From Allocoleopsis franciscana PCC 7113 (lineage in GTDB: Bacteria; Cyanobacteriota; Cyanobacteriia; Cyanobacteriales; Coleofasciculaceae), in the NCBI RefSeq assembly GCF_000317515.1, contig NC_019738.1, positions 4,676,001 through 4,740,000 of the forward strand: a stretch of 64,000 bases of DNA, given 5' to 3'. Position numbers and translations under genes: made by a program. Below the pieces are notes generated by a model. That model ran no database searches and was not told the DNA's origin. It saw only the letters and a list, made by a program, of their open reading frames with translations. This document shows positions 5,986 through 63,412 of this stretch, one piece after another. Numbering within the stretch: position 1 is the first letter of the stretch; every line of letters starts with the position of its first letter.

Positions 5986-6139
5986 GTACGGAAGAACCAA
6001 CTTGTCAAGATATATTACCTGCGATCGCGCATTTCTTCGCTGTGTAATTGACTTGATTACACAATCCCTGATTGACCCCTCCCCAACCCTCACTAAAGCT
6101 CCGGTCCCCTTATCAAGGGGAGGGAGCAAATCTCCTGTT

Positions 6140-6167
6140 CCCCCCTTAACAAGGGGGGTTAGGGGGG
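6140..6167. repeat. C6/G6 hairpin repeat, copy 1
   Basis: CCCCCC-TTAACAA-GGGGGG is followed by TTA and another GGGGGG. It has the same form as the element at 59589-59616 and related ones near 62932 and 63385. A second, shorter C4/G4 hairpin lies just upstream (CCCCTTATCAAGGGG). The block CACTAAAGCTCCGG (6091-6104) recurs at 62826-62839. Confidence 0.8.
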
Positions 6168-6198
6168 TTCATTCCAATTTGGCAATTTCTACCCTGTT

Positions 6199-7945: not shown

Positions 7946-8052
7946 TGCAAGAAGGCAGAAGTCAGGAGGCAGAAGGCAGAAGGGATATTGCTTTTACAGT
8001 AAGCTTTTTAACCTTTTTGAACTGGTGGGTTATTTCCGCCCCGCTGCACTAG
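7942..8052 (+). mobile_element. MITE-like element, copy 2
   Basis: A 111-bp element is bounded by CTAGTGCA and TGCACTAG, the same 8-bp inverted termini as the element at 394-529 but in opposite orientation. Its first bases overlap the stop codon of the phosphatase gene (TAG at 7943-7945). It contains a run of AGGCAGAAG-type short repeats and the shared block TACAGTAAGCTTTTTAACCT. Confidence 0.6.
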
Positions 8053-27086: not shown

Positions 27087-30000
27087 TCATTGACAACGTT
27101 GTTGATAAATTTGAGCTACCTTATCTCTTGGGTTTAGGCGTAAACACTCAGAAAACAATTGTTTAGCTTTCCTGAAGTGACGGGAATTATAGTTATGCAA
27201 GGCTTCTATAAATATTTGGAAAGTAGTTAGCTTTCCTTCTCTTACTTCTGGTGGATCAGCGTCAAAGACTTCATAAACAGCTACCACTTCTGATTTTCCC
27301 TTAACTTTAACGCGATCAATAGGACGAATAGCATAGACAGGTTCGTTCAATTGTAAAAAAGTTTGGTGAGTAATTAACAACGATACCCCATAATTTTTTG
27401 TTAGATTTTCCACACGCGAGGCTAAATTCACGGCATCACTAATCACCGTACCATCCATCCGATTGTATCCTCCCACCGTTCCTAGCATTAAAGAACCTGT
27501 ATTGATGCCAATTCCAATTTGGATCGGCATATAACCCGATTTCATTCGTTGTTGATTATATTCCGTAAGGCGGTGTAGCATAGAAATTCCCGCTTTGAGT
27601 GCATTATCTGCCTCACCGCTAAACAGCGCCATAATTGCATCGCCAATGTATTTATCAATAAATCCTTGATGCTCAATAATGGCGGGTTCCATGCGAGAGA
27701 GATAAGCATTAATAAATTTAAAATTATCTTGAGGAGTCATCCTTTCTGACAGAGTCGTGAAGTCACGAATATCAGAAAACAATACCGACATTTCCTGCTG
27801 TACGGCATCCCCTAACTGGACATCAATAATACTTTCTTTATCTAACAATTGGAGAAATTGACGAGGCACAAAACGGGAAAAAGATTGATTGAGTTGAAAC
27901 AGCTTAGCTGTAAACTTTTCCCGTTCTATTTCAGCTTTTTTCCGCTCGGTAATATCTTGTAAGGCGACAATTGCATAAGCAATATTCCCTTTCTCATCAT
28001 AGATTGGGGTACCCCAAGTTTCTATAGGAATAATTTTATCTTCTCGATGAATTTCTATATCATTAATTCTCACACTCTCACCTTTTAAGGCTCTTACAGC
28101 AGGTAATTTTTCTGTAGGGTATTCTTGAGCGGTTCCTGCTTTATAAACGTGATGAATTTTGGAGATCTCTTCTATTGTAGTTTCCGGGATAACACCTTTA
28201 CCAAATAACTGATAAGTGATCCGATTAGAGTAGCAGGGTTTGCCAGTGGTATCGAACACGGCTACACCCACGGGTACACCTTCTAGAAATTGGTTCAACC
28301 GACTTTCACTGGCTCGTACCTCTGTATACAGTTTGGCATTTTCGATCGAAATAGCAGCTTGAGACGATAAGAGTTTTAATAGTGCCAATCGTTCTGGAGT
28401 AAAAGCACCTGTGGTGAGGTTATTTTCTAAATAAACAATACTGATAAGTTTCCCTTGGTTAATCAGAGGTACACACAAAATCGATTTAGGCTGATGCGCT
28501 TTGATATAGGGATCGAGAGTAAATTGGCCCTCATGGGTGGCATCATTTAGAAGTACGCTTTCTTGAGTTCTGGCAACATAATTGATAATAGTCGATGAAA
28601 CCATCACACTGTTTTCAACGGGAAGTGACTGCAACACAGTCACTTGATTAAGACCTACATCACCAGAGGCTTCAATTAATCGTTTACCTTCAGTTTCTAG
28701 TATCAATAATCCTTTTTGAGCACCAGCATTTTCGATGAGTATTTTCATTAAGGAAGCAAGTAATTTATCTAGTATAATTTCACCGGAAATAGCTTGAGAG
28801 GCTTTCATAACAGAAGCCAAATCCAAAGATTCGATGGATCTGCTACTCGTTGAAATACTTGTCGTTTTTGTAATAGTGTTTTTCCGCCGATTAGCTATTA
28901 CTGATTTACTGATTAACTGAGGGTATCTTTTTTCTAAGTCCTTAACTTTCGCTAAAGCTTGCCAACAACTGTACCCATAGTAAGCTTTAGTCATATAAGT
29001 TTGAGCAATTTCCTCCATCCCACAGTCTAAATAAAACTCTGCTGCTAACTCATAAGCTAAGGCTTCTTCTTGAATGTACCCGTTCTTTCGAGCGCTTTGA
29101 ATTGCTTGTTTATAAAGCTCTGCGGCTTGCCATTTTTTCCCAAGCACTTTTGCTTTTTCCGCTTCTACCAGTTCGTATTTATGCTGGAAGTTACATGGAG
29201 CATGTTTTGCCCAATGTTTCATTAGTTTTTGATTGGTTGATACGAGCTGAATTCCTTTTCTTTGTTCTTTTTTGGTAAACTGAGGATAGTGAGATAACAA
29301 GACTAAAGAATAATAAAAATTGTGTACGCTATATTTAAATAATCCAACACTCCCTTCTTTGTATCTTTCAGCTAATCTAGCATTCTCTAGAGCTTCATCT
29401 TTATTTTTAAATAAATAACAAAGTAAAGTTTTAGCTAAATATACAGAGAAAATAAATAAAACTGTATTATCTCGCCTGAAAATTGGTAACATTTCAGTTT
29501 CATTAAAACATTCACCAATCAAACTGTATTGTTCCAGGTTGGGGTCAAGTAGCTTTAATCCGAGCTGTCTCCATATATTGATATAATGAGAAGAGAAATC
29601 CTGATTAATTTTTTCAATTAGGTCACCATACTGACTAAATTTTTGTTCCAAAAATTCTAAATTTTCTCCACTAAAAAATAGGTGGATGCAATATTCGGCG
29701 GATGCATAACCCGCATATTCTACCTCTCCAGTTTCTAGTCCGGCTTGAACCGTTTCTTGCAAAGGAATGATTGTTTCCCTGAGAGGCTCTTTCCAAAATC
29801 TGACATGGGAGTTAAAAACCTGGAAAACTTTACTTTTAAGTTCTCTGGCATCAAATTGTTCTAAGATTCTTAAGGAAAGTTGACCGAATCGATAGCCAGA
29901 ATCCAGAGTTTTTGGAGAATTACACAGCATTAATCCATAAAGACCATAAGCATAAGCTGCCCACGGCGAGTTACCATATTCAATACATAAATTCACCATC

Positions 30001-32909
30001 TTTAAGGCAACCAGAGGTAGCAAAGCTGGATTCACGTTATAAGCAGGAGCAGCAAGATTCATTAAAATTCGCATTGCAGCTATTTTATGGGAATCTATTA
30101 AAAATGGTAAAGTCTTTAAATCTGCAATTGGCTTACCCAGAAGTTGTAATTTTGTCCAAAACTGTGCTGACCAAAAATTTAGCTTGTTCGGATGATGAGG
30201 TAAGGAAACTCCTAGCATTTTTATAACTTGTAATCCGGTCTGTAACGCTTCTTGGAGTTTATTTTGCGAAATCTCAGACTGGATTTCAATTTCATAAACT
30301 CTGACTTTTTCTAACAATGTCTTAGCCTGGTGCTTCACAACAGCAGAAAGCATTGCAGAGCGTTCATAATTCGTGTTCAAATATTCAACTTCTACAGCTT
30401 CAATGTGCAAATCGAGTGCTAATTCATACTGGGTTTCCCAGCTATTGTCTGGCAATAGTTTGAATCCTGCATTCAGATACTTGATTGCTACTCCATAAGC
30501 TGTCGCTGCTTTGGCTCTTTGGCCTGCCCTTAAATTTAATTTAGCGATTTTATCTCGCTCTTCTGGCTTGGTAATCATCTCAATACCCATATTGAAATGA
30601 TCGACGATTTTAAATATCTTCTCTGATAAACCATCTGGCGCAGCATTTTGCAATAGCAGGCGGCCAATTTGTAAATGTATGATTTTTTTATCTTCTTCAT
30701 TAATTAAAGCATAGGCGGCTTGTTGTATTCGGTCATGGGAAAACTTATATTTTTGAATCAAAAGTTGAGAATCCAACTGTGATATAGCTAGAATTAATTC
30801 GGATTGAATAGCTGGAATGAGTTCAAAAGAAACTTGTAAAGTTGATTTTTCACAAATAATAGAAAGGGTCTTCAAGTCAAATTCAAAACCTACACAAGCT
30901 GCTAATCGTAAAACTTGCTGTGTAAATTCAGGCAACTTTTTTAACTTGCCAAGCATTAATTCAAGTACATTATCCGTGATACTAATTGCCTGAATTTGTT
31001 CAATATCCCAACTCCATGGTGAATTTTGAGGATGATTAATGTTAGACTCAAATTCTGAAGTAGCAGGTAAGTTAAACCTGATTAAGTTTTCTGCGTACAA
31101 TGTTTTCAGAAATTCATTGCTAAAAAAAGGATTGCCGCCAGTTTTCCGAAGTACTAGTTCCGCTAATGATTTTACCGAGCTAAGGTCGCTGTGTAACGTG
31201 TCGGCAATCAGGTCGGTAATATGTTTGAGTTCTAAAGGTGCTAAGGTAATTTGGTTGATAATCGCTCCTTGTTGACGCATTTCTTCAAGAGCGATCGCTA
31301 AGGGATGGATAGAATTGACTTCATTATCTCGATACGCTCCAATAAAAAATAAGTGTTGTGATTTTTTAAAAGTGGGCATCTCCCCTGTTGTGCCTGTTAC
31401 CCCTTCTGTCATCATCAGTTTGATCAACTTTAGTGTTGCGGAATCAGCCCACTGGAGATCATCGATAAATATAACTAAAGGATGCTTTTTGGAACCAAAA
31501 ACTTTAATAAAGTTTTGAAAAACTAAATTAAAACGATTCTGTGACTCAGTAGCACCTAAAGTGGGGACGGGTGATTGAGAACCAACAATCAGTTCAACCT
31601 CAGGAATCACATCAATAATTACCTGTCCATTAGCACCAAAAGCTTGTAATAACTTGTCTCGCCATTGCTGAAGCTCAGCTTCACTTTCTGTTAACACTTG
31701 GCGGACTAATTCAGTCAAGGATTGAATTACTGCGCTGTAGGGAACATCCCGCTGAAACGGGTCAAATTTACCTCGGATGAAATAACCCCGTTTTTGAGTT
31801 ATCGGTTTATACAATTCTTGGACTAATACGGATTTACCAATCCCGGAATAACCCGCGACTAGCATCATTTCAATATGAGATTTTTCCGGGGACACTTGAG
31901 AAACCAAAGCTTCAGATTTCTCTTTTTCTACCTCGATTTCCCCAGTCGCAACTCGCTCAAAAGCTCTCAGTAAAACTTCAACTTCTCGTTCTCGACCATA
32001 AAGTTTTTGAGGAATCTGAAACCGAGAAGAAATATCAGCACTCGCGAGCAGAAAAGTTGATATCTTTCCTGTGTGTTGTAATTGATGCCAACACTCGGCT
32101 AAATCCCTGTGAATTCCCCAAGCACTTTGATAGCGTTCCTCTGCTGTCTTCGCCATCAATTTCATCACGATATCGGAAATTATTTTAGGGATATCTGGCT
32201 CAAGAACATGGGGAGGTACAGGCTGTTTCGCAATATGACAATGGACTAACTCTAGAGCCTCCTCTGTCTGGAAAGGAAGCTGATGAGTCAATAGTTCATA
32301 AAAGGTGACTCCAAGGGAATAAAAATCCGTGCGGTAATCTAGGGAACGGTTCATTCTTCCGGTTTGCTCCGGAGAAATATAAGCCAAGGTTCCTTCTAAC
32401 AGTTGAGGACTGGTGAGGCTGGGGTTTTCCCGTGCTAAAACCGTAGAAATGCCAAAATCAATCAGTTTAACTTGTCCGGTTTGAGGGTTAAAAACGAGAT
32501 TCGAGGGATTAATATCTTTATGAATAATATTGTGATGATGAACTTGTCCTAAACTTTGAGTAATTTGCAGGGCAATGGGTAGAAATTCTGATAAGGAGAA
32601 GGGTTTTTGAGAGAGCCATCTCTTCAAGGATTCCCCGCCAAAATCCTCTAACAGTATGACAAGGGTATTTTGATAGTTTTGTAAGTCGTAGACTTTCACT
32701 ACCCCCTCTAGGTTGAGCTGACGAGTGATTTCATATTCCCGTTGATAGCGGCTCAGGTCGTCAGGCGTGGGATAATCTTGTTTGAGCATTTTCAAGATAA
32801 TCGGTTGCCCATCCGATTCTCGGAACCCTCGATAAACCAATGAGTTGACACTTTCATAAATTTGTGATTTAAATGTAATACCTGTAATATCGACAGTAAT
32901 ACGATTCAT
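27087..32909 (-). CDS. Giant serine/threonine kinase - AAA/ATPase - GAF - PAS - adenylate cyclase
   Basis: The 1940-residue signalling protein has, in order: a protein kinase domain (10-275; Lys40, HKDINPSN at 130-137, DFG at 151-153), an AAA/STAND-type ATPase (GYSGIGKS Walker A at 353-360; VIFIDDLQWAD Walker B), a long TPR-like helical region, GAF (about 1330-1480; ILCVPLINQGKLISIVYLEN), PAS (about 1500-1610) and a class III cyclase near residues 1700-1890. The cyclase keeps both metal-binding Asp (VLFSDIRDFT, DKYIGDAIMALF), the Lys of FIDKYIGD and the Asp in ISDAVNLASR, expected for ATP rather than GTP. It likely integrates several signals into phosphorylation and cAMP. The kinase catalytic loop has Asn where Lys is usual; I recall that as common in this family. 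Confidence 0.9.
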   Translation of the reverse strand: MNRITVDITGITFKSQIYESVNSLVYRGFRESDGQPIILKMLKQDYPTPDDLSRYQREYEITRQLNLEGVVKVYDLQNYQNTLVILLEDFGGESLKRWLSQKPFSLSEFLPIALQITQSLGQVHHHNIIHKDINPSNLVFNPQTGQVKLIDFGISTVLARENPSLTSPQLLEGTLAYISPEQTGRMNRSLDYRTDFYSLGVTFYELLTHQLPFQTEEALELVHCHIAKQPVPPHVLEPDIPKIISDIVMKLMAKTAEERYQSAWGIHRDLAECWHQLQHTGKISTFLLASADISSRFQIPQKLYGREREVEVLLRAFERVATGEIEVEKEKSEALVSQVSPEKSHIEMMLVAGYSGIGKSVLVQELYKPITQKRGYFIRGKFDPFQRDVPYSAVIQSLTELVRQVLTESEAELQQWRDKLLQAFGANGQVIIDVIPEVELIVGSQSPVPTLGATESQNRFNLVFQNFIKVFGSKKHPLVIFIDDLQWADSATLKLIKLMMTEGVTGTTGEMPTFKKSQHLFFIGAYRDNEVNSIHPLAIALEEMRQQGAIINQITLAPLELKHITDLIADTLHSDLSSVKSLAELVLRKTGGNPFFSNEFLKTLYAENLIRFNLPATSEFESNINHPQNSPWSWDIEQIQAISITDNVLELMLGKLKKLPEFTQQVLRLAACVGFEFDLKTLSIICEKSTLQVSFELIPAIQSELILAISQLDSQLLIQKYKFSHDRIQQAAYALINEEDKKIIHLQIGRLLLQNAAPDGLSEKIFKIVDHFNMGIEMITKPEERDKIAKLNLRAGQRAKAATAYGVAIKYLNAGFKLLPDNSWETQYELALDLHIEAVEVEYLNTNYERSAMLSAVVKHQAKTLLEKVRVYEIEIQSEISQNKLQEALQTGLQVIKMLGVSLPHHPNKLNFWSAQFWTKLQLLGKPIADLKTLPFLIDSHKIAAMRILMNLAAPAYNVNPALLPLVALKMVNLCIEYGNSPWAAYAYGLYGLMLCNSPKTLDSGYRFGQLSLRILEQFDARELKSKVFQVFNSHVRFWKEPLRETIIPLQETVQAGLETGEVEYAGYASAEYCIHLFFSGENLEFLEQKFSQYGDLIEKINQDFSSHYINIWRQLGLKLLDPNLEQYSLIGECFNETEMLPIFRRDNTVLFIFSVYLAKTLLCYLFKNKDEALENARLAERYKEGSVGLFKYSVHNFYYSLVLLSHYPQFTKKEQRKGIQLVSTNQKLMKHWAKHAPCNFQHKYELVEAEKAKVLGKKWQAAELYKQAIQSARKNGYIQEEALAYELAAEFYLDCGMEEIAQTYMTKAYYGYSCWQALAKVKDLEKRYPQLISKSVIANRRKNTITKTTSISTSSRSIESLDLASVMKASQAISGEIILDKLLASLMKILIENAGAQKGLLILETEGKRLIEASGDVGLNQVTVLQSLPVENSVMVSSTIINYVARTQESVLLNDATHEGQFTLDPYIKAHQPKSILCVPLINQGKLISIVYLENNLTTGAFTPERLALLKLLSSQAAISIENAKLYTEVRASESRLNQFLEGVPVGVAVFDTTGKPCYSNRITYQLFGKGVIPETTIEEISKIHHVYKAGTAQEYPTEKLPAVRALKGESVRINDIEIHREDKIIPIETWGTPIYDEKGNIAYAIVALQDITERKKAEIEREKFTAKLFQLNQSFSRFVPRQFLQLLDKESIIDVQLGDAVQQEMSVLFSDIRDFTTLSERMTPQDNFKFINAYLSRMEPAIIEHQGFIDKYIGDAIMALFSGEADNALKAGISMLHRLTEYNQQRMKSGYMPIQIGIGINTGSLMLGTVGGYNRMDGTVISDAVNLASRVENLTKNYGVSLLITHQTFLQLNEPVYAIRPIDRVKVKGKSEVVAVYEVFDADPPEVREGKLTTFQIFIEALHNYNSRHFRKAKQLFSECLRLNPRDKVAQIYQQRCQ

Positions 32910-33277: not shown

Positions 33278-36200
33278 CTAAATCATTGAATTCCGTTCTC
33301 TACAGCATTGTTGATAAAATTGAGCAACCTTATCATTGGGATTGAGGCGTAAACATTCCAAAAGAAGTTTTTCGGCTTCTTTCCAGTTTTGGGAATGATT
33401 GTGAAACAACGCTTCTTTAAATAGTTCTAGAGTTGCTAACTTAGCTTCTTGGATTTCAGACAAATCTGCATCAAATACTTCATAGACTGTGACTAATTCA
33501 GACTTACCCTTAACTTTAACTTCGTCTATTTTGCGAATTTTATAATCAGATGGATTGCTCAAACGCAAAAAAGTTTGATGAGTAATTAATAACGGTATAC
33601 CATATATTTTGGTCAGGCTTTCTACACGGGAAGCTAAGTTTACTGCATCACTAATGACTGTGCCATCCATCCGGTTATAGCCTCCCACAGTTCCCAACAT
33701 TAAAGAACCTGTATGGATACCAATCCCAATTTGAATCGGCTCATAGCCCGATTTCATGCGGTTTTGATTATATTCAGTGAGGCGATGCAGCATGGCAATT
33801 CCCGCTTTTAGTGCATTATCCGCCGCACCACTAAACAGTGCCATAATTGCATCTCCAATGTATTTATCAATAAACCCTTGATTTTCTCGAATCGCGGGTT
33901 CCATACGAGACAAATAGCTATTAATAAATTTAAAATTATCTTGGGGAGTCATACTTTCCGATAAAGTAGTGAAGTCACGAATATCGGAAAATAGCACTGA
34001 CATTTCTTGCTGAATTTGGTCGCCTAGTTGTACATCAATAATGCTTTTTTTGTCTAAAAATTGTAAAAATTGACGAGGGACAAAGCGCTCGTAAGCTGTA
34101 TTGAGTGCTGCCATATTGCTGTAGAGACGGGCATTTTCAATAGAAATTGCGGCTTGAGCTGACAGTATACTTAACATCTCTATTCGCTTTGGGGTAAAAG
34201 CACCTGTGGTTAGATTATTTTCTAGATAAACAATTCCACTGAGCTTCCCCTGATTCATCAACGGCGTACAGAGAACTGATTTGGCTTGATGAGTTTTGAT
34301 ATAGGAATCATTAATAAATTGACCCTCACGGGTAGCATCATTTAATACAACACTTTCTTGTGTTCGGACAACATAATTAATCAGAGTGGATGAAAGGAGA
34401 GGCGTCTGATTATATTCTTCTACAGATTCAATAGGGATGGATTGCAAAACGGTAACTTTTTCAGAATCCACCTGTCCAGAAGCTTCGATTCGCAGTTTAC
34501 CCTTGCTTTCCAAAATTAGAAACCCCTTTTGTGCCCCTGCATTTTCAATCAAAATCTTCATCAAGCTTTCTAGCAACTTATCCAATACAATTTCACCCGA
34601 AATTGCTTGTGTTGCCTTCATGATTGTGGCTAAATCCAACGCCTCACCCGAACTCTGGTTAGTCGATTTTGAGATAAATTTACCGTTTTTAATTCCGGAT
34701 TTGGTTGCCGCCAGTAACTGAGGATACGTTTCCTCTAAATGCCTTACCTTGCGAGTAGCTCCCCATTTAAGATAGCAATAACGTGCCTCCTGCATATAGG
34801 CTTTGCTAATAACGTCTTTGCCTTTGGATATATAATACTGGGCGGCTAATTCATAAGCCAAAGCTTTTTCTTGGATATAGCCATTTTCTTCGGCACCTGC
34901 TATAGAGTAATCATACCATTCTATTGCTTTAGTCTCTTGGCCTATAACCCTACAGCGTTCTGCCTCCACAAGGTAAAATTTATGCAGAAAATTTGCTGGT
35001 GCATAGTGCGCCCATTTCTTCATTTTTTTCTGGTTAGCTCTCACTTTCCGTAAGATGCGCTTTTGTACAGACGTTTTGCTGGAAGGATAAATAGCCAACA
35101 GCGCTAAAGAATCGTAAAAATGGAAAAGAGGAACTGTTACCACTCCTAAGCCACCATCCAAATATCTTTCGGTTATGGCAGCATTTTTTACAGCTTCTTG
35201 ATATTCAGTAAATAGATAGCAAAGAACGAGTTTGTTGAAATATAAGATAAAGATTGCTGTTCTATCATTCGCTTCTTGATGAAGAGACAGCATTTTTTCT
35301 TCATCATAGACTTCGCCGATTAAACGGCACTGATGTTCAGTCCGGCCTAATAAGGTAAGAACTGTCTGCCGCCATATTTTTAGTAAATAAAGTGTTGTTT
35401 CTTGCTTAAGCTTACCAATAACCTCACTATAGATTGCCATCTCTTGTTCAAGTTCACCTAGTTCCTTCCCAATAAAATAGGCATGGTAAACGTAAGCATT
35501 GATGGATAAAGCTGCAAACTCTAAATCTCCGGTTTCTATTCCACTTTCAAAGGAGTCAATCAAAGCTGGTAAGGTTTCTCCAAGATGCTCTTTCCAATGT
35601 CTAATCAGGTCATTAACGACTAGAAATGTTTTTGCCTTAAGCTTTTTGGCATTGAACTTATCAAGCAAACTGAGCGCCAGTTGACCCAATTGATAGCCAG
35701 AATCGATAGCTCCTATTATTCCACATAGAATTGTTCCATAACCCGCATACCCAGAGGCTGATTCAGAAGCATTGCCATATTTAATCGATAAATTGACCAT
35801 CTTAAAGGCCAGCAACGGAATCAATTCAGGAACAGCTAAATAGGCAGCATAACTAATACTCCACATGAGGCGCATGGCGGCTAAAGCAATTGGATCAGTC
35901 ATGTCAGGTAGGTCTATTAAATCCTTAATATTTTTTCTGAATAAAGTTAATTTAATTCTAATAAGACTAAATATAATATTCAAAATTTTAGGTTTTTCTG
36001 GAAACTGTAATCCTAAAAGTCTAAGAATTTTTATACCTGTATCTATAGCCTCCAATAATCGATTTTGTGATATAAGAGATTGGATTAAAATTTCGTAAAT
36101 TTTAATTTTATCTAGCAGTGTTATAGCCTGCATCAACACCACTTCAGCTAATTTCTCCATCTGCTCAAAGTTTGTGCTGAGGTAGGCGGCTTCTGCGGCT

Positions 36201-38731
36201 TCTACATAAAGTTCGAGTGTCAAGTTATACTGCCTCTGCCAGCTAGACTGGTCTAGCGGAGATTGAGGAGGATTAAAAAGTTCAATACCAAAAATCAAGT
36301 ATTTAAATGCAGGTTCATAGGCTATTGAAGCTTTGGCTTTTTTGCCAGCCATCAGGTTTAATTTGGCGAGTTCATCTCGTTCTGATTGGTCACTAATCAG
36401 TTCAATACCTAAATTCAGTTGATTAACGATATCAAAGATTTTCTCTTCTCGCTGATTTGCTGGAATATTTTGTAGAAGCAGTTGGCCCACTTGTCGGTGT
36501 GTACGAGCACGACAATGTCGTACCTCGACATCTTCAGAAATCAGAGAATATACAGCTTGCTGAATTCGATCATGGATAAACTTATATTCAACGGGGATTG
36601 GTGATTGGTAATCGGTAATTGGTAATTGGTCATTGGTCATTGAACTTTCCCAGTCTCCAATCACCTCATAGGCATCACTGAGAGGCAAGATTAGACCTTC
36701 TACAACGGCAGAGTGCAGGTTCACCGCTGTTTCTTGTGGCGACTTTTCTGAGACAACTGCCAAGGTTTTTAGCTCAAATCGACTACCTATACAAGCAGCC
36801 AACTTCAACACCTGTTGCGTGGATTCTGGTAACTTTTGAATCTTGGCTGCCATTAGTTCGACAACATTTTCGGTAATTCCCCGTGCTTTAATTTGTTCTA
36901 AATCCCATCGCCATTCTCCCCGTTCAAGGGTAGGCTGAGGGGGAATAAAATTAAGTAAATTTTCTGCATAAAGAGATTTTAAAAACTCATTTACAAAGAA
37001 GGGATTACCCTCAGTTTTTGCCAGCACTAGTTCCGCTAGCGGCAGAGTGCGCTTACCGCTACAGTTGAGGGTATCGGAAATTAGCTGATTTACTGTAATT
37101 AAGTCTAAAGGCTTAAGAAAAATTTTATTAACAATTGTTCCAGTATTTTTTATGTCTTTAAGAGTAAGCCTCAATGGATGAGCCGAGCTAACTTCATTAT
37201 CCCGATAGGCCCCAATTAAAAAGAGTCCGGGTTCTGAAGAAGTCATCAGCAATTCCATGAGTTTTAAAGATGGTCTATCGGCCCACTGCAAATCGTCTAA
37301 AAATATCACTAGAGGATGTAATGGACTGACAAAAACTGCAATGAAATTCTGAAAAACTAAATTAAAGCGATTCTGAGATTCGGTAGCACCTAAAGTGGGG
37401 ACGGGTGATTGAAAACCAACAATCAGCTCAACTTCAGGAATCACATCAATAATCACCTGTCCATTAGAACCGAGAGACTGTAATAACTTTTCTCGCCATT
37501 GCTGAAGCTGAACTTCACTTTCTGCTAACAGTTGTCGGACTAATTCAGTCAAGGCTTGAATTACCGCACTGTAAGGAACATTTCGCTGAAGCTGCTCAAA
37601 TTTACCTCGAATAAAATAACCCCGCCTTTGAGTTATCGGTTGATAAAGCTCTTGGACTAAGACAGATTTACCAATCCCGGAATAACCCTCAACTAGCATC
37701 ATTTCAATGTGAGATTTCCCCTTGGGATTTTGAGATATAACCTGCTCAGAGTTCTCTTCCTCTGTATCCACCCTCCCCGTCGCAACTCGCTCAAATGCTC
37801 GGAGTAAAATTTCGACTTCCCGCTCCCTACCATAAAGTTTTTGGGGAATCTGAAACCGAGAAGAAATATCAGCACTAGCCAGGATAAATGTTGATATCTT
37901 TCCCCTCTGTTGTAATTGATGCCAACACTCGGCTAAATCCCTGTGAATTCCCCAAGCACTTTGATAGCGTTCCTCTGCTGTCTTCGCCATCAATTTCATC
38001 ACGATATCGGAAATTATTTTAGGGATATCTGGCTCAAGAACATGGGGAGGTACAGGCTGTTTCGCAATATGACAATGGACTAACTCTAGAGCCTCCTCTG
38101 TCTGGAAAGGAAGCTGATGAGTCAGCAGTTCATAAAAGGTGACTCCAAGGGAATAAAAATCCGTGCGGTAATCTAGGGAACGGTTCATCCTTCCGGTTTG
38201 CTCCGGAGAAATATAAGCCAAGGTTCCTTCTAACAGTTGAGGACTGGTGAGGCTGGGGTTTTCCCGTGCTAAAACCGTAGAAATGCCAAAATCAATCAGT
38301 TTAACTTGTCCGGTTTGAGGGTTAAAAACGAGATTCGAGGGATTAATATCTTTATGAATAATATTGTGATGATGAACTTGTCCTAAACTTTGAGTAATTT
38401 GCAGGGCAATGGGCAGAAATTCTGATAAAGAGAAAGATTTTTCACCAAGCCATCTCTTCAAGGATTCTCCGCCAAAATCCTCTAACAGTATGACAAGGGT
38501 ATTTTGATAGTTCTGTAAGTTGTAGACTTTCACTACCCCCTCTAGGTCGAGTTTCCGCAGAATTTCATACTCTTGTCGGTAGTGAATCAGTTGGCTGGGG
38601 GTAGGATAGTCTTCTTTAAGCAGTTTCAAGATAATCGGTTGCTGATCAAATTGCCTTATTCCTCGATAAACTAAGGAATTAGCACTTTCATGAATTTGTG
38701 TAATAACTGTAAGACCAGGAAATTTAATCAT
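33278..38731 (-). CDS. Giant serine/threonine kinase - AAA/ATPase - GAF - adenylate cyclase (paralogue)
   Basis: The 1817-residue paralogue of the neighbouring protein has the same order (kinase, ATPase with GYSGIGKS, helical TPR-like region, GAF with VLCTPLMNQGKLSGIVYLEN, cyclase with VLFSDIRDFT and DKYIGDAIMALF) but lacks the PAS domain. Catalytic and metal residues of kinase and cyclase agree with the paralogue. Its kinase-coding DNA between 37908 and 38430 is nearly identical to 32074-32596, whereas the helical region is widely diverged. Two short segments absent from the paralogue look like inserted repeats (36501-36523 and 36596-36642). Start is ATG 38729-38731. Confidence 0.9.
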   Translation of the reverse strand: MIKFPGLTVITQIHESANSLVYRGIRQFDQQPIILKLLKEDYPTPSQLIHYRQEYEILRKLDLEGVVKVYNLQNYQNTLVILLEDFGGESLKRWLGEKSFSLSEFLPIALQITQSLGQVHHHNIIHKDINPSNLVFNPQTGQVKLIDFGISTVLARENPSLTSPQLLEGTLAYISPEQTGRMNRSLDYRTDFYSLGVTFYELLTHQLPFQTEEALELVHCHIAKQPVPPHVLEPDIPKIISDIVMKLMAKTAEERYQSAWGIHRDLAECWHQLQQRGKISTFILASADISSRFQIPQKLYGREREVEILLRAFERVATGRVDTEEENSEQVISQNPKGKSHIEMMLVEGYSGIGKSVLVQELYQPITQRRGYFIRGKFEQLQRNVPYSAVIQALTELVRQLLAESEVQLQQWREKLLQSLGSNGQVIIDVIPEVELIVGFQSPVPTLGATESQNRFNLVFQNFIAVFVSPLHPLVIFLDDLQWADRPSLKLMELLMTSSEPGLFLIGAYRDNEVSSAHPLRLTLKDIKNTGTIVNKIFLKPLDLITVNQLISDTLNCSGKRTLPLAELVLAKTEGNPFFVNEFLKSLYAENLLNFIPPQPTLERGEWRWDLEQIKARGITENVVELMAAKIQKLPESTQQVLKLAACIGSRFELKTLAVVSEKSPQETAVNLHSAVVEGLILPLSDAYEVIGDWESSMTNDQLPITDYQSPIPVEYKFIHDRIQQAVYSLISEDVEVRHCRARTHRQVGQLLLQNIPANQREEKIFDIVNQLNLGIELISDQSERDELAKLNLMAGKKAKASIAYEPAFKYLIFGIELFNPPQSPLDQSSWQRQYNLTLELYVEAAEAAYLSTNFEQMEKLAEVVLMQAITLLDKIKIYEILIQSLISQNRLLEAIDTGIKILRLLGLQFPEKPKILNIIFSLIRIKLTLFRKNIKDLIDLPDMTDPIALAAMRLMWSISYAAYLAVPELIPLLAFKMVNLSIKYGNASESASGYAGYGTILCGIIGAIDSGYQLGQLALSLLDKFNAKKLKAKTFLVVNDLIRHWKEHLGETLPALIDSFESGIETGDLEFAALSINAYVYHAYFIGKELGELEQEMAIYSEVIGKLKQETTLYLLKIWRQTVLTLLGRTEHQCRLIGEVYDEEKMLSLHQEANDRTAIFILYFNKLVLCYLFTEYQEAVKNAAITERYLDGGLGVVTVPLFHFYDSLALLAIYPSSKTSVQKRILRKVRANQKKMKKWAHYAPANFLHKFYLVEAERCRVIGQETKAIEWYDYSIAGAEENGYIQEKALAYELAAQYYISKGKDVISKAYMQEARYCYLKWGATRKVRHLEETYPQLLAATKSGIKNGKFISKSTNQSSGEALDLATIMKATQAISGEIVLDKLLESLMKILIENAGAQKGFLILESKGKLRIEASGQVDSEKVTVLQSIPIESVEEYNQTPLLSSTLINYVVRTQESVVLNDATREGQFINDSYIKTHQAKSVLCTPLMNQGKLSGIVYLENNLTTGAFTPKRIEMLSILSAQAAISIENARLYSNMAALNTAYERFVPRQFLQFLDKKSIIDVQLGDQIQQEMSVLFSDIRDFTTLSESMTPQDNFKFINSYLSRMEPAIRENQGFIDKYIGDAIMALFSGAADNALKAGIAMLHRLTEYNQNRMKSGYEPIQIGIGIHTGSLMLGTVGGYNRMDGTVISDAVNLASRVESLTKIYGIPLLITHQTFLRLSNPSDYKIRKIDEVKVKGKSELVTVYEVFDADLSEIQEAKLATLELFKEALFHNHSQNWKEAEKLLLECLRLNPNDKVAQFYQQCCRERNSMI
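36596..36642. repeat. ATTGGTAATTGGTxATTGG-type repeat inside a coding region
   Basis: A run of GATTGGT/AATTGGT/CATTGGT units lies in frame within the 1817-residue kinase gene, coding for SSMTNDQLPITDYQSPIPVE. The paralogue lacks these residues at the same place. The same kind of sequence is a familiar non-coding repeat between cyanobacterial genes. Confidence 0.7.
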
Positions 38732-59452: not shown

Positions 59453-59588
59453 TAGGTTTTCTCTATAGAACTTGGGTTTATCTCATATCTTGCATCTGAC
59501 TTGTGGGATTTTAGTTACCCCCGAACTACGTCCTGCTTTGCTATAAGTTTTCTCATGCTTTGGGAGAAGCCCATCTTCATTTCTTGTT

Positions 59589-59616
59589 CCCCCCTTCATA
59601 AGGGGGGTTAGGGGGG
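59589..59616. repeat. C6/G6 hairpin repeat, copy 2
   Basis: CCCCCC-TTCATAA-GGGGGG-TTA-GGGGGG is the same form as 6140-6167. It lies between lpxD and the TPR-CHAT gene. Confidence 0.85.
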
Positions 59617-59666
59617 TGTGCAAGATGTAAGTTTACTCGACAGTTGTACCGGGAAAAGCGTTCCAC

Positions 59667-62654: not shown

Positions 62655-62937
62655 TGGCAAGTCCTCTCTTGAGCTAGGAAAGCAGATTGCTGACTCAATG
62701 CATGTATATCTCTCATGAGGGGAGAAATTATGCAATAGGTTTTGCGATTTGTTTGGCTGGCTGGAGGAACGTGATTATCTCCGGGGAGATCCCCCCAATC
62801 TCCAGACTTCGTCTCGCTTCGCTATCACTAAAGCTCCGGCTTAAAAAGGGGGGCTTAATACATGAGGAATTTGCGTTTCACAGGAATAGGGGATCGCTCT
62901 TTACTTAAGCTCTGGCTTGAATCTTAATTCTCCCCCC
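62655..62937. other. Repeat-rich intergenic region, 283 bp
   Basis: It contains the block CACTAAAGCTCCGG (62826-62839), AAAAAGGGGGGCTT (near 62845) and CCCCCCTTAAAAAGGGGGG (from 62932), the latter reaching into the end of the DUF559 gene. It has no credible gene. Confidence 0.55.
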
Positions 62938-62961
62938 TTAAAAAGGGGGGCTGGGGGGGAT
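62932..62961. repeat. C6/G6 hairpin repeat, copy 3
   Basis: CCCCCCTT-AAA-AAGGGGGG, followed by CTGGGGGGG. The last codons and stop of the DUF559 gene (IPPSPPF-stop) lie in this repeat. Confidence 0.85.
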
Positions 62962-63333: not shown

Positions 63334-63384
63334 ACGATCCCCCCCAACCCCCGGACAACAAAAAGCGCAAGCAACATCTGGCTT

Positions 63385-63412
63385 CCCCCTTTTTAAGGGG
63401 GATGGGAGGGGG
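63385..63412. repeat. C5/G5 hairpin repeat, copy 4
   Basis: CCCCC-TTTTTAA-GGGGG followed by ATGGGAGGGGG lies between the DUF559 and XRE genes. Further C-rich runs lie near 63341-63356. Confidence 0.75.

Follow-up and report, generated by a model that had tools for sequence, protein, structure and literature searches.

Three segments of a kinase–cyclase protein encoded in the window (the whole stretch of DNA analysed, 64,000 nucleotides) are read in frame from repeats that are dispersed through the genome, and all three have counterparts in a congener. We consider it likely that such repeats propagate independently of the genes, with selection keeping the in-frame, stop-free copies that lie in tolerant loops, three of which were captured here. 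An earlier note, drawn up from the sequence alone, had described two of these segments as non-coding elements that became protein sequence within 150 bp. The capture of non-coding repeats in frame stands, and in fact occurred three times within ~400 bp, but it is neither a unique accident, as the heptamer loop has received repeats recurrently across genera, nor a recent insertion.

The host gene and its repeat-derived segments

The host gene (Table 1) has the domains Pkinase, AAA_16, GAF and adenylate/guanylate cyclase, and the best PDB match of its product in a fold comparison was the STAND ATPase 6mfv. The unbroken ORF and the domains rule out that it is a pseudogene. The product of the tandem paralogue P0002 is 65% identical to the host protein and, as had been claimed, the segments at sites 1 and 2 are both extra in the intact 1817-aa ORF relative to this paralogue. 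A separate observation concerns the kinase catalytic segment of the two paralogues (37892-38434 and its counterpart within 27087-32909; residues ~100-280), where DNA identity is 98-100%, compared with ~50-85% outside it, which points to recent gene conversion between them.

Table 1. Features of the host locus, in window coordinates
Feature	Positions	Strand	Description	Basis
Host gene	33278-38731	(-)	1817 aa; Ser/Thr kinase, STAND-type AAA_16 ATPase with predicted winged helix and helical repeats, GAF, cyclase	intact ORF, domains, fold match
Tandem paralogue P0002	27087-32909	(-)	without the three segments	comparison
Wing-tip loop	36587-36679	(-)	residues 685-715; length hypervariable in homologues	
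Site 1	36597-36642	(-)	TTACCAA-type heptamer array coding MTNDQLPITDYQSPI	pattern counts
Site 2	36501-36529	(-)	29-nt REP-like palindrome coding VEVRHCRAR	consensus GTAGGGGCACGACATTGTCGTGCCCCTAC
Site 3	36242-36274	(-)	relic of CCCCTTnTTAAGGGGGG-type repeat coding NPPQSPLDQSS	congener comparison, genome pattern counts

Counts of repeats inside and outside genes were obtained from pattern matches and the flanking DNA of the matches in the genome of the window (7.97 Mb in nine contigs, the first of 7,470,429 bases), genes being called by a codon-usage script trained on the window and not taken from annotation.

The site-1 array is 46 nt long (~6.6 copies), and its core pattern has four matches in the window, every one of them inside the array, whereas shuffles lead one to expect 0.04. 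Thirteen of the 14 other heptamer arrays of the genome lie outside called genes, and those of related genomes likewise lie mostly outside genes. The sole exception (C1:7337114) is found in a histidine-kinase gene, with NHRLPITNYQSPT in the same coding orientation; this array (locus L153, G000:C1:7335100-7339100, near 1980-2045) is in frame and adjoins the ATPase N-box. A 573-aa ORF of a related genome (L292) also has an in-frame heptamer array (1498-1531, SVTNYQLPITHSQNP), again in the stop-free orientation.

The palindrome reported at 36501-36523 is present at site 2, but is better delimited as a 29-nt element that extends to 36529. It matches the intergenic consensus GTAGGGGCACGACATTGTCGTGCCCCTAC at 24/29 positions (random P ~1e-10 per position); in the site-2 frame, this consensus encodes VGARHCRAP, and the window copy VEVRHCRAR. 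The 17-nt core of the palindrome occurs at 19 sites in the genome, versus one site for a reversed-pattern control. Sixteen of the 18 other sites are intergenic, and the two inside genes are both weak matches, so the description of both repeat types as normally intergenic is confirmed by the counts. The net gain at site 2 relative to other homologues is five residues, i.e. 15 nt and not 29 nt, and no simple clean insertion is seen, so that one must suppose either that the element took the place of existing sequence or that it was shortened afterwards.

The relic at site 3 was missed in the earlier note. Other homologues have little sequence at this position, and the segment is absent from all aligned homologues outside the genus. 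The congener (G001) carries a fuller copy, which reads NPPQSPLVKGGSEGGSS and is encoded by CCCCTCAATCCCCTCTTGTTAAGGGGGGGAGCGAAGGAGG; the window copy falls 18 nt short of it, probably as the result of a deletion. The repeat pattern has 76 + 79 matches in the genome of the window and 33 + 30 in that of the congener (control 0-1), and the congener site-3 copy (C13:117234) is itself among the latter.

Other repeats were observed in the window. The CCCCCTTnnnAAGGGGGG-type repeat, which represents the family to which the site-3 relic belongs, occurs four times, at 6130-6168, 59579-59617, 62922-62960 and 63374-63412, and an inverted repeat of 75 nt (394-468 / 7978-8052; 83% complementary) has its two parts 7.5 kb apart.

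Age and structural setting of the segments

The DNA of the congener is 81% identical across the locus, and related segments are present at all three sites. Comparison with sister strains lacking the repeats had been proposed, but the congener is not without the segments: it has a decayed heptamer-like array at site 1 (weak match, 17/21), material of the same length at site 2 (ALGGRHCRIRI) and the fuller repeat at site 3. The elements are therefore older than the split of the two species, and a recent strain-specific insertion was rejected.

In the congener the left part of the palindrome is kept (16/19 positions; right part 4/10), and in the window the right part (17/19 positions; left part 7/10). 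The two species differ at 23/52 residues of the three segments, compared with 187/1458 in the remaining aligned protein (Fisher P = 6e-8), and this faster divergence argues for little constraint since the split.

A structure model of residues 300-900, built from 58 aligned sequences (mean pLDDT 90, pTM 0.87), has four low-pLDDT stretches. Three of these coincide with the repeat segments, each of which is predicted as a surface loop of low confidence in a model that is confident elsewhere. Site 1 (block pLDDT 61-68) is placed at the tip of a hairpin, between the two strands of the wing of a domain that we read as a winged helix from the order of its helices and strands, site 2 at the start of a helix after HDRIQQAVYSLI (pLDDT 71), and site 3 in a loop between helices (pLDDT 70). 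The fourth stretch (residues 320-339) is the kinase–ATPase linker, in which several homologues have tandem arrays, and which is apparently another permissive site. Long tandem repeats occur in this linker in loci L066 and L169 (84-nt and 60-nt units).

The wing-tip loop and the origin of its repeats

Homologues were gathered for their similarity in protein and DNA sequence, irrespective of whether they contained repeats. The median length of their wing loops is 21 residues (5th-95th percentile ~7-48, with the loop start set by a pattern that fails for some rows), and the longest loops contain repeats, several of which were verified as dispersed in their own genomes. This verification extends to four other genomes or genome groups, in which the loops contain (i) GGGCTAAAGCCCAACTACG, present twice in that of L035 (286 + 269 genome matches, control 0), (ii) TGCGCTACGCGCACGCTACGG, in that of L180 (33 + 23 genome matches, control 0), (iii) GACGCGG-type units (55 + 43 matches for L083 and 198 + 180 in the genome of L272), or (iv) CTYCTGCC-type units (681 + 663 in the genome of L280 and 323 + 333 in that of L258). 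In different genera, the wing loop has been filled by unrelated dispersed repeats.

Analysis with TRF detected 24 short-period arrays in 211 homologous genes, ten of them in the wing loop versus 1.0 expected (P = 2e-8), and ten arrays in 75 longer loci from named genomes, three of them in the wing loop versus 0.25 expected (P = 0.002); both P values are calculated as if related genes were independent, with the window gene counted in.

The heptamer is also found in the wing loop of a second gene of the window's genome (L200, C1:3618090). When heptamer loops were compared for orientation and INDEPENDENCE, eight loops in coding orientation had at least 17/21 TTACCAA matches; none did so in the reverse orientation, nor did any control stretch (0/1283). 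Read forward, a TTACCAA array encodes YQLPITN in all three frames, whereas the reverse reading meets a stop at every seventh codon.

It had been argued that the same residues in orthologues of distant genera would mark the segments as ancestral. The site-2 insertion is absent from every aligned homologue outside the genus, whereas LPITxYxxP-like residues are present at site 1 in several other genera. In a tree built without the loop (227 columns; quickly built, with many weak forks), the eight heptamer genes need ~6 changes, at least three of which are forced by strong branches. Recurrent capture therefore explains the site-1 residues better than a single ancestral sequence, and an origin of all heptamers of the family from a single ancestral insertion is not favoured. 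The loops of L233, L095, L017 and their relatives may go back to a common older event. Heptamer arrays seem to have entered the wing loop on several occasions, each time in the one orientation that is free of stops.

We propose that repeats would arise and, presumably, move by their own means, landing at many places. Three of different kinds, a tandem heptamer array, a REP-like palindrome and a palindrome rich in G/C, entered the host gene before the two sampled species split. The copies surviving within genes would be those with a net length that is a multiple of three, a frame and strand without a stop, and a flexible surface loop as their site. The captured sequence would then decay as an ordinary, weakly constrained loop, and the captured peptides are presumably without function. 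The wing tip would be the most permissive site in the STAND kinase–cyclase family, so that unrelated repeats have come to occupy it in many lineages, each time independently; its being a hotspot would be due to selection and not to a preference in insertion.

A preference for inserting at a particular feature of the DNA that encodes the wing loop, with selection for tolerance being of little weight, would also produce a strong concentration of arrays in one loop, and tandem heptamers could grow by slippage from a C/A-rich seed already there. We regard this as unlikely: the same loop is used by repeats of quite different sequence, other arrays occupy other variable linkers of the protein, and the bias in orientation agrees with the prediction from coding constraint. 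It is scarcely conceivable that ordinary variable-loop residues, by chance or ancestry, happen to look like repeats. The LPITxYxxP-like residues of several genera could be taken in this sense, but the match at the DNA level extends over 46 nt at site 1 and 24/29 nt at site 2, no control stretch reaches the heptamer threshold, and the site-2 insertion is confined to the genus among the aligned homologues.

The winged-helix domain is regulatory in STAND ATPases. Recurrence in such a domain, and the presence of a heptamer array in the same loop of L200, would fit an adaptive recruitment in which captured peptides alter the length or flexibility of the wing, tune the kinase–cyclase and are kept for that reason. 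This is nevertheless highly improbable, given that divergence is much faster in the inserted segments than in the remaining protein, that the palindrome is decaying in both species and that loop length varies widely. We also think it very unlikely that the wing loop is an evolvable slot, into which repeats are recruited repeatedly and in which heptamer slippage changes wing length and tunes signalling; if it were, non-coding repeats would be a supply of regulatory protein variation.

Comparison with known repeat families

In the literature searched, whose coverage is incomplete, we found no account of a single structural loop that unrelated repeat families, heptamers among them, have colonised time and again, nor of a YQLPITN-type peptide. 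Elhai et al. are said to have described, in 2008, small dispersed repeats as very short, apparently mobile elements of cyanobacteria, to which the present repeats bear a likeness by description.

The cyanobacterial STRR (short tandemly repeated repetitive) heptamers (Mazel et al. 1990, cited in PMC2670836) are described as mainly intergenic (PMC2670836, PMC4692102). The site-1 family resembles these accounts by description, as it likewise consists of tandem 7-nt units, present at several loci per genome and mainly intergenic, in filamentous cyanobacteria. Unlike the heptamers so described, it is read here as the heptad peptide YQLPITN in a protein loop, in one orientation only.

The best-known case of in-frame insertion is that of the Rickettsia palindromic elements (RPE; Ogata et al. 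2000), which according to a review occupy fold-compatible positions in many protein genes (PMC10969869). Site 2 is similar to the RPE of this account in that a dispersed palindrome is translated in frame in a protein gene; here the ORF is intact and the congener shares the insertion. The elements studied here differ from the RPE so described (~100-150 bp, Rickettsia) in comprising ~29 nt and short tandem units, in being unrelated to them in sequence and in being mostly intergenic.

GTAG/CGTC REPs encode residues inside many ORFs, some genes having two; two Xanthomonas species carry different REPs at much the same position of recB, and cyanobacteria also have GTAG REP families (PMC3733652). Like the ORF-located REPs, the site-2 family is a dispersed palindrome within the range of 20-40 bp (29 nt), mostly intergenic, with a minority of copies translated inside ORFs. 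The GTAG tetranucleotide, which in GTAG REPs lies at one end of the stem, is found in about half of the intergenic copies (~7/16, directly beside the stem on one strand; the window copy is without it). Unlike in GTAG REPs, an associated RAYT (REP-associated tyrosine transposase) was not found in the genome: the single intact Y1_Tnp hit, which carries YIRNQAQHH, resembling subclass 1.2, has flanks without the palindrome. Mobilisation by a resident RAYT was rejected, as no unit of this kind was found in the genome.

In-frame insertions of REPs and RPEs are already known, and the apparent novelty lies in the fact that unrelated repeat families recur in a single loop. This links the dispersal of non-coding repeats in bacteria with the evolution of proteins at a traceable site: one loop of a widespread protein family records several independent captures in which the constraints of frame, strand and fold are visible. 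The wing loop is thereby a natural experiment on the frequency with which repeat DNA turns into protein and on whether such protein is ever useful. Unlike the ORF-located REPs (PMC3733652), the repeats described here include a REP-like palindrome that shares its gene with a heptamer array and a further repeat, and they have one favoured loop that is common to unrelated repeat families over many genera.
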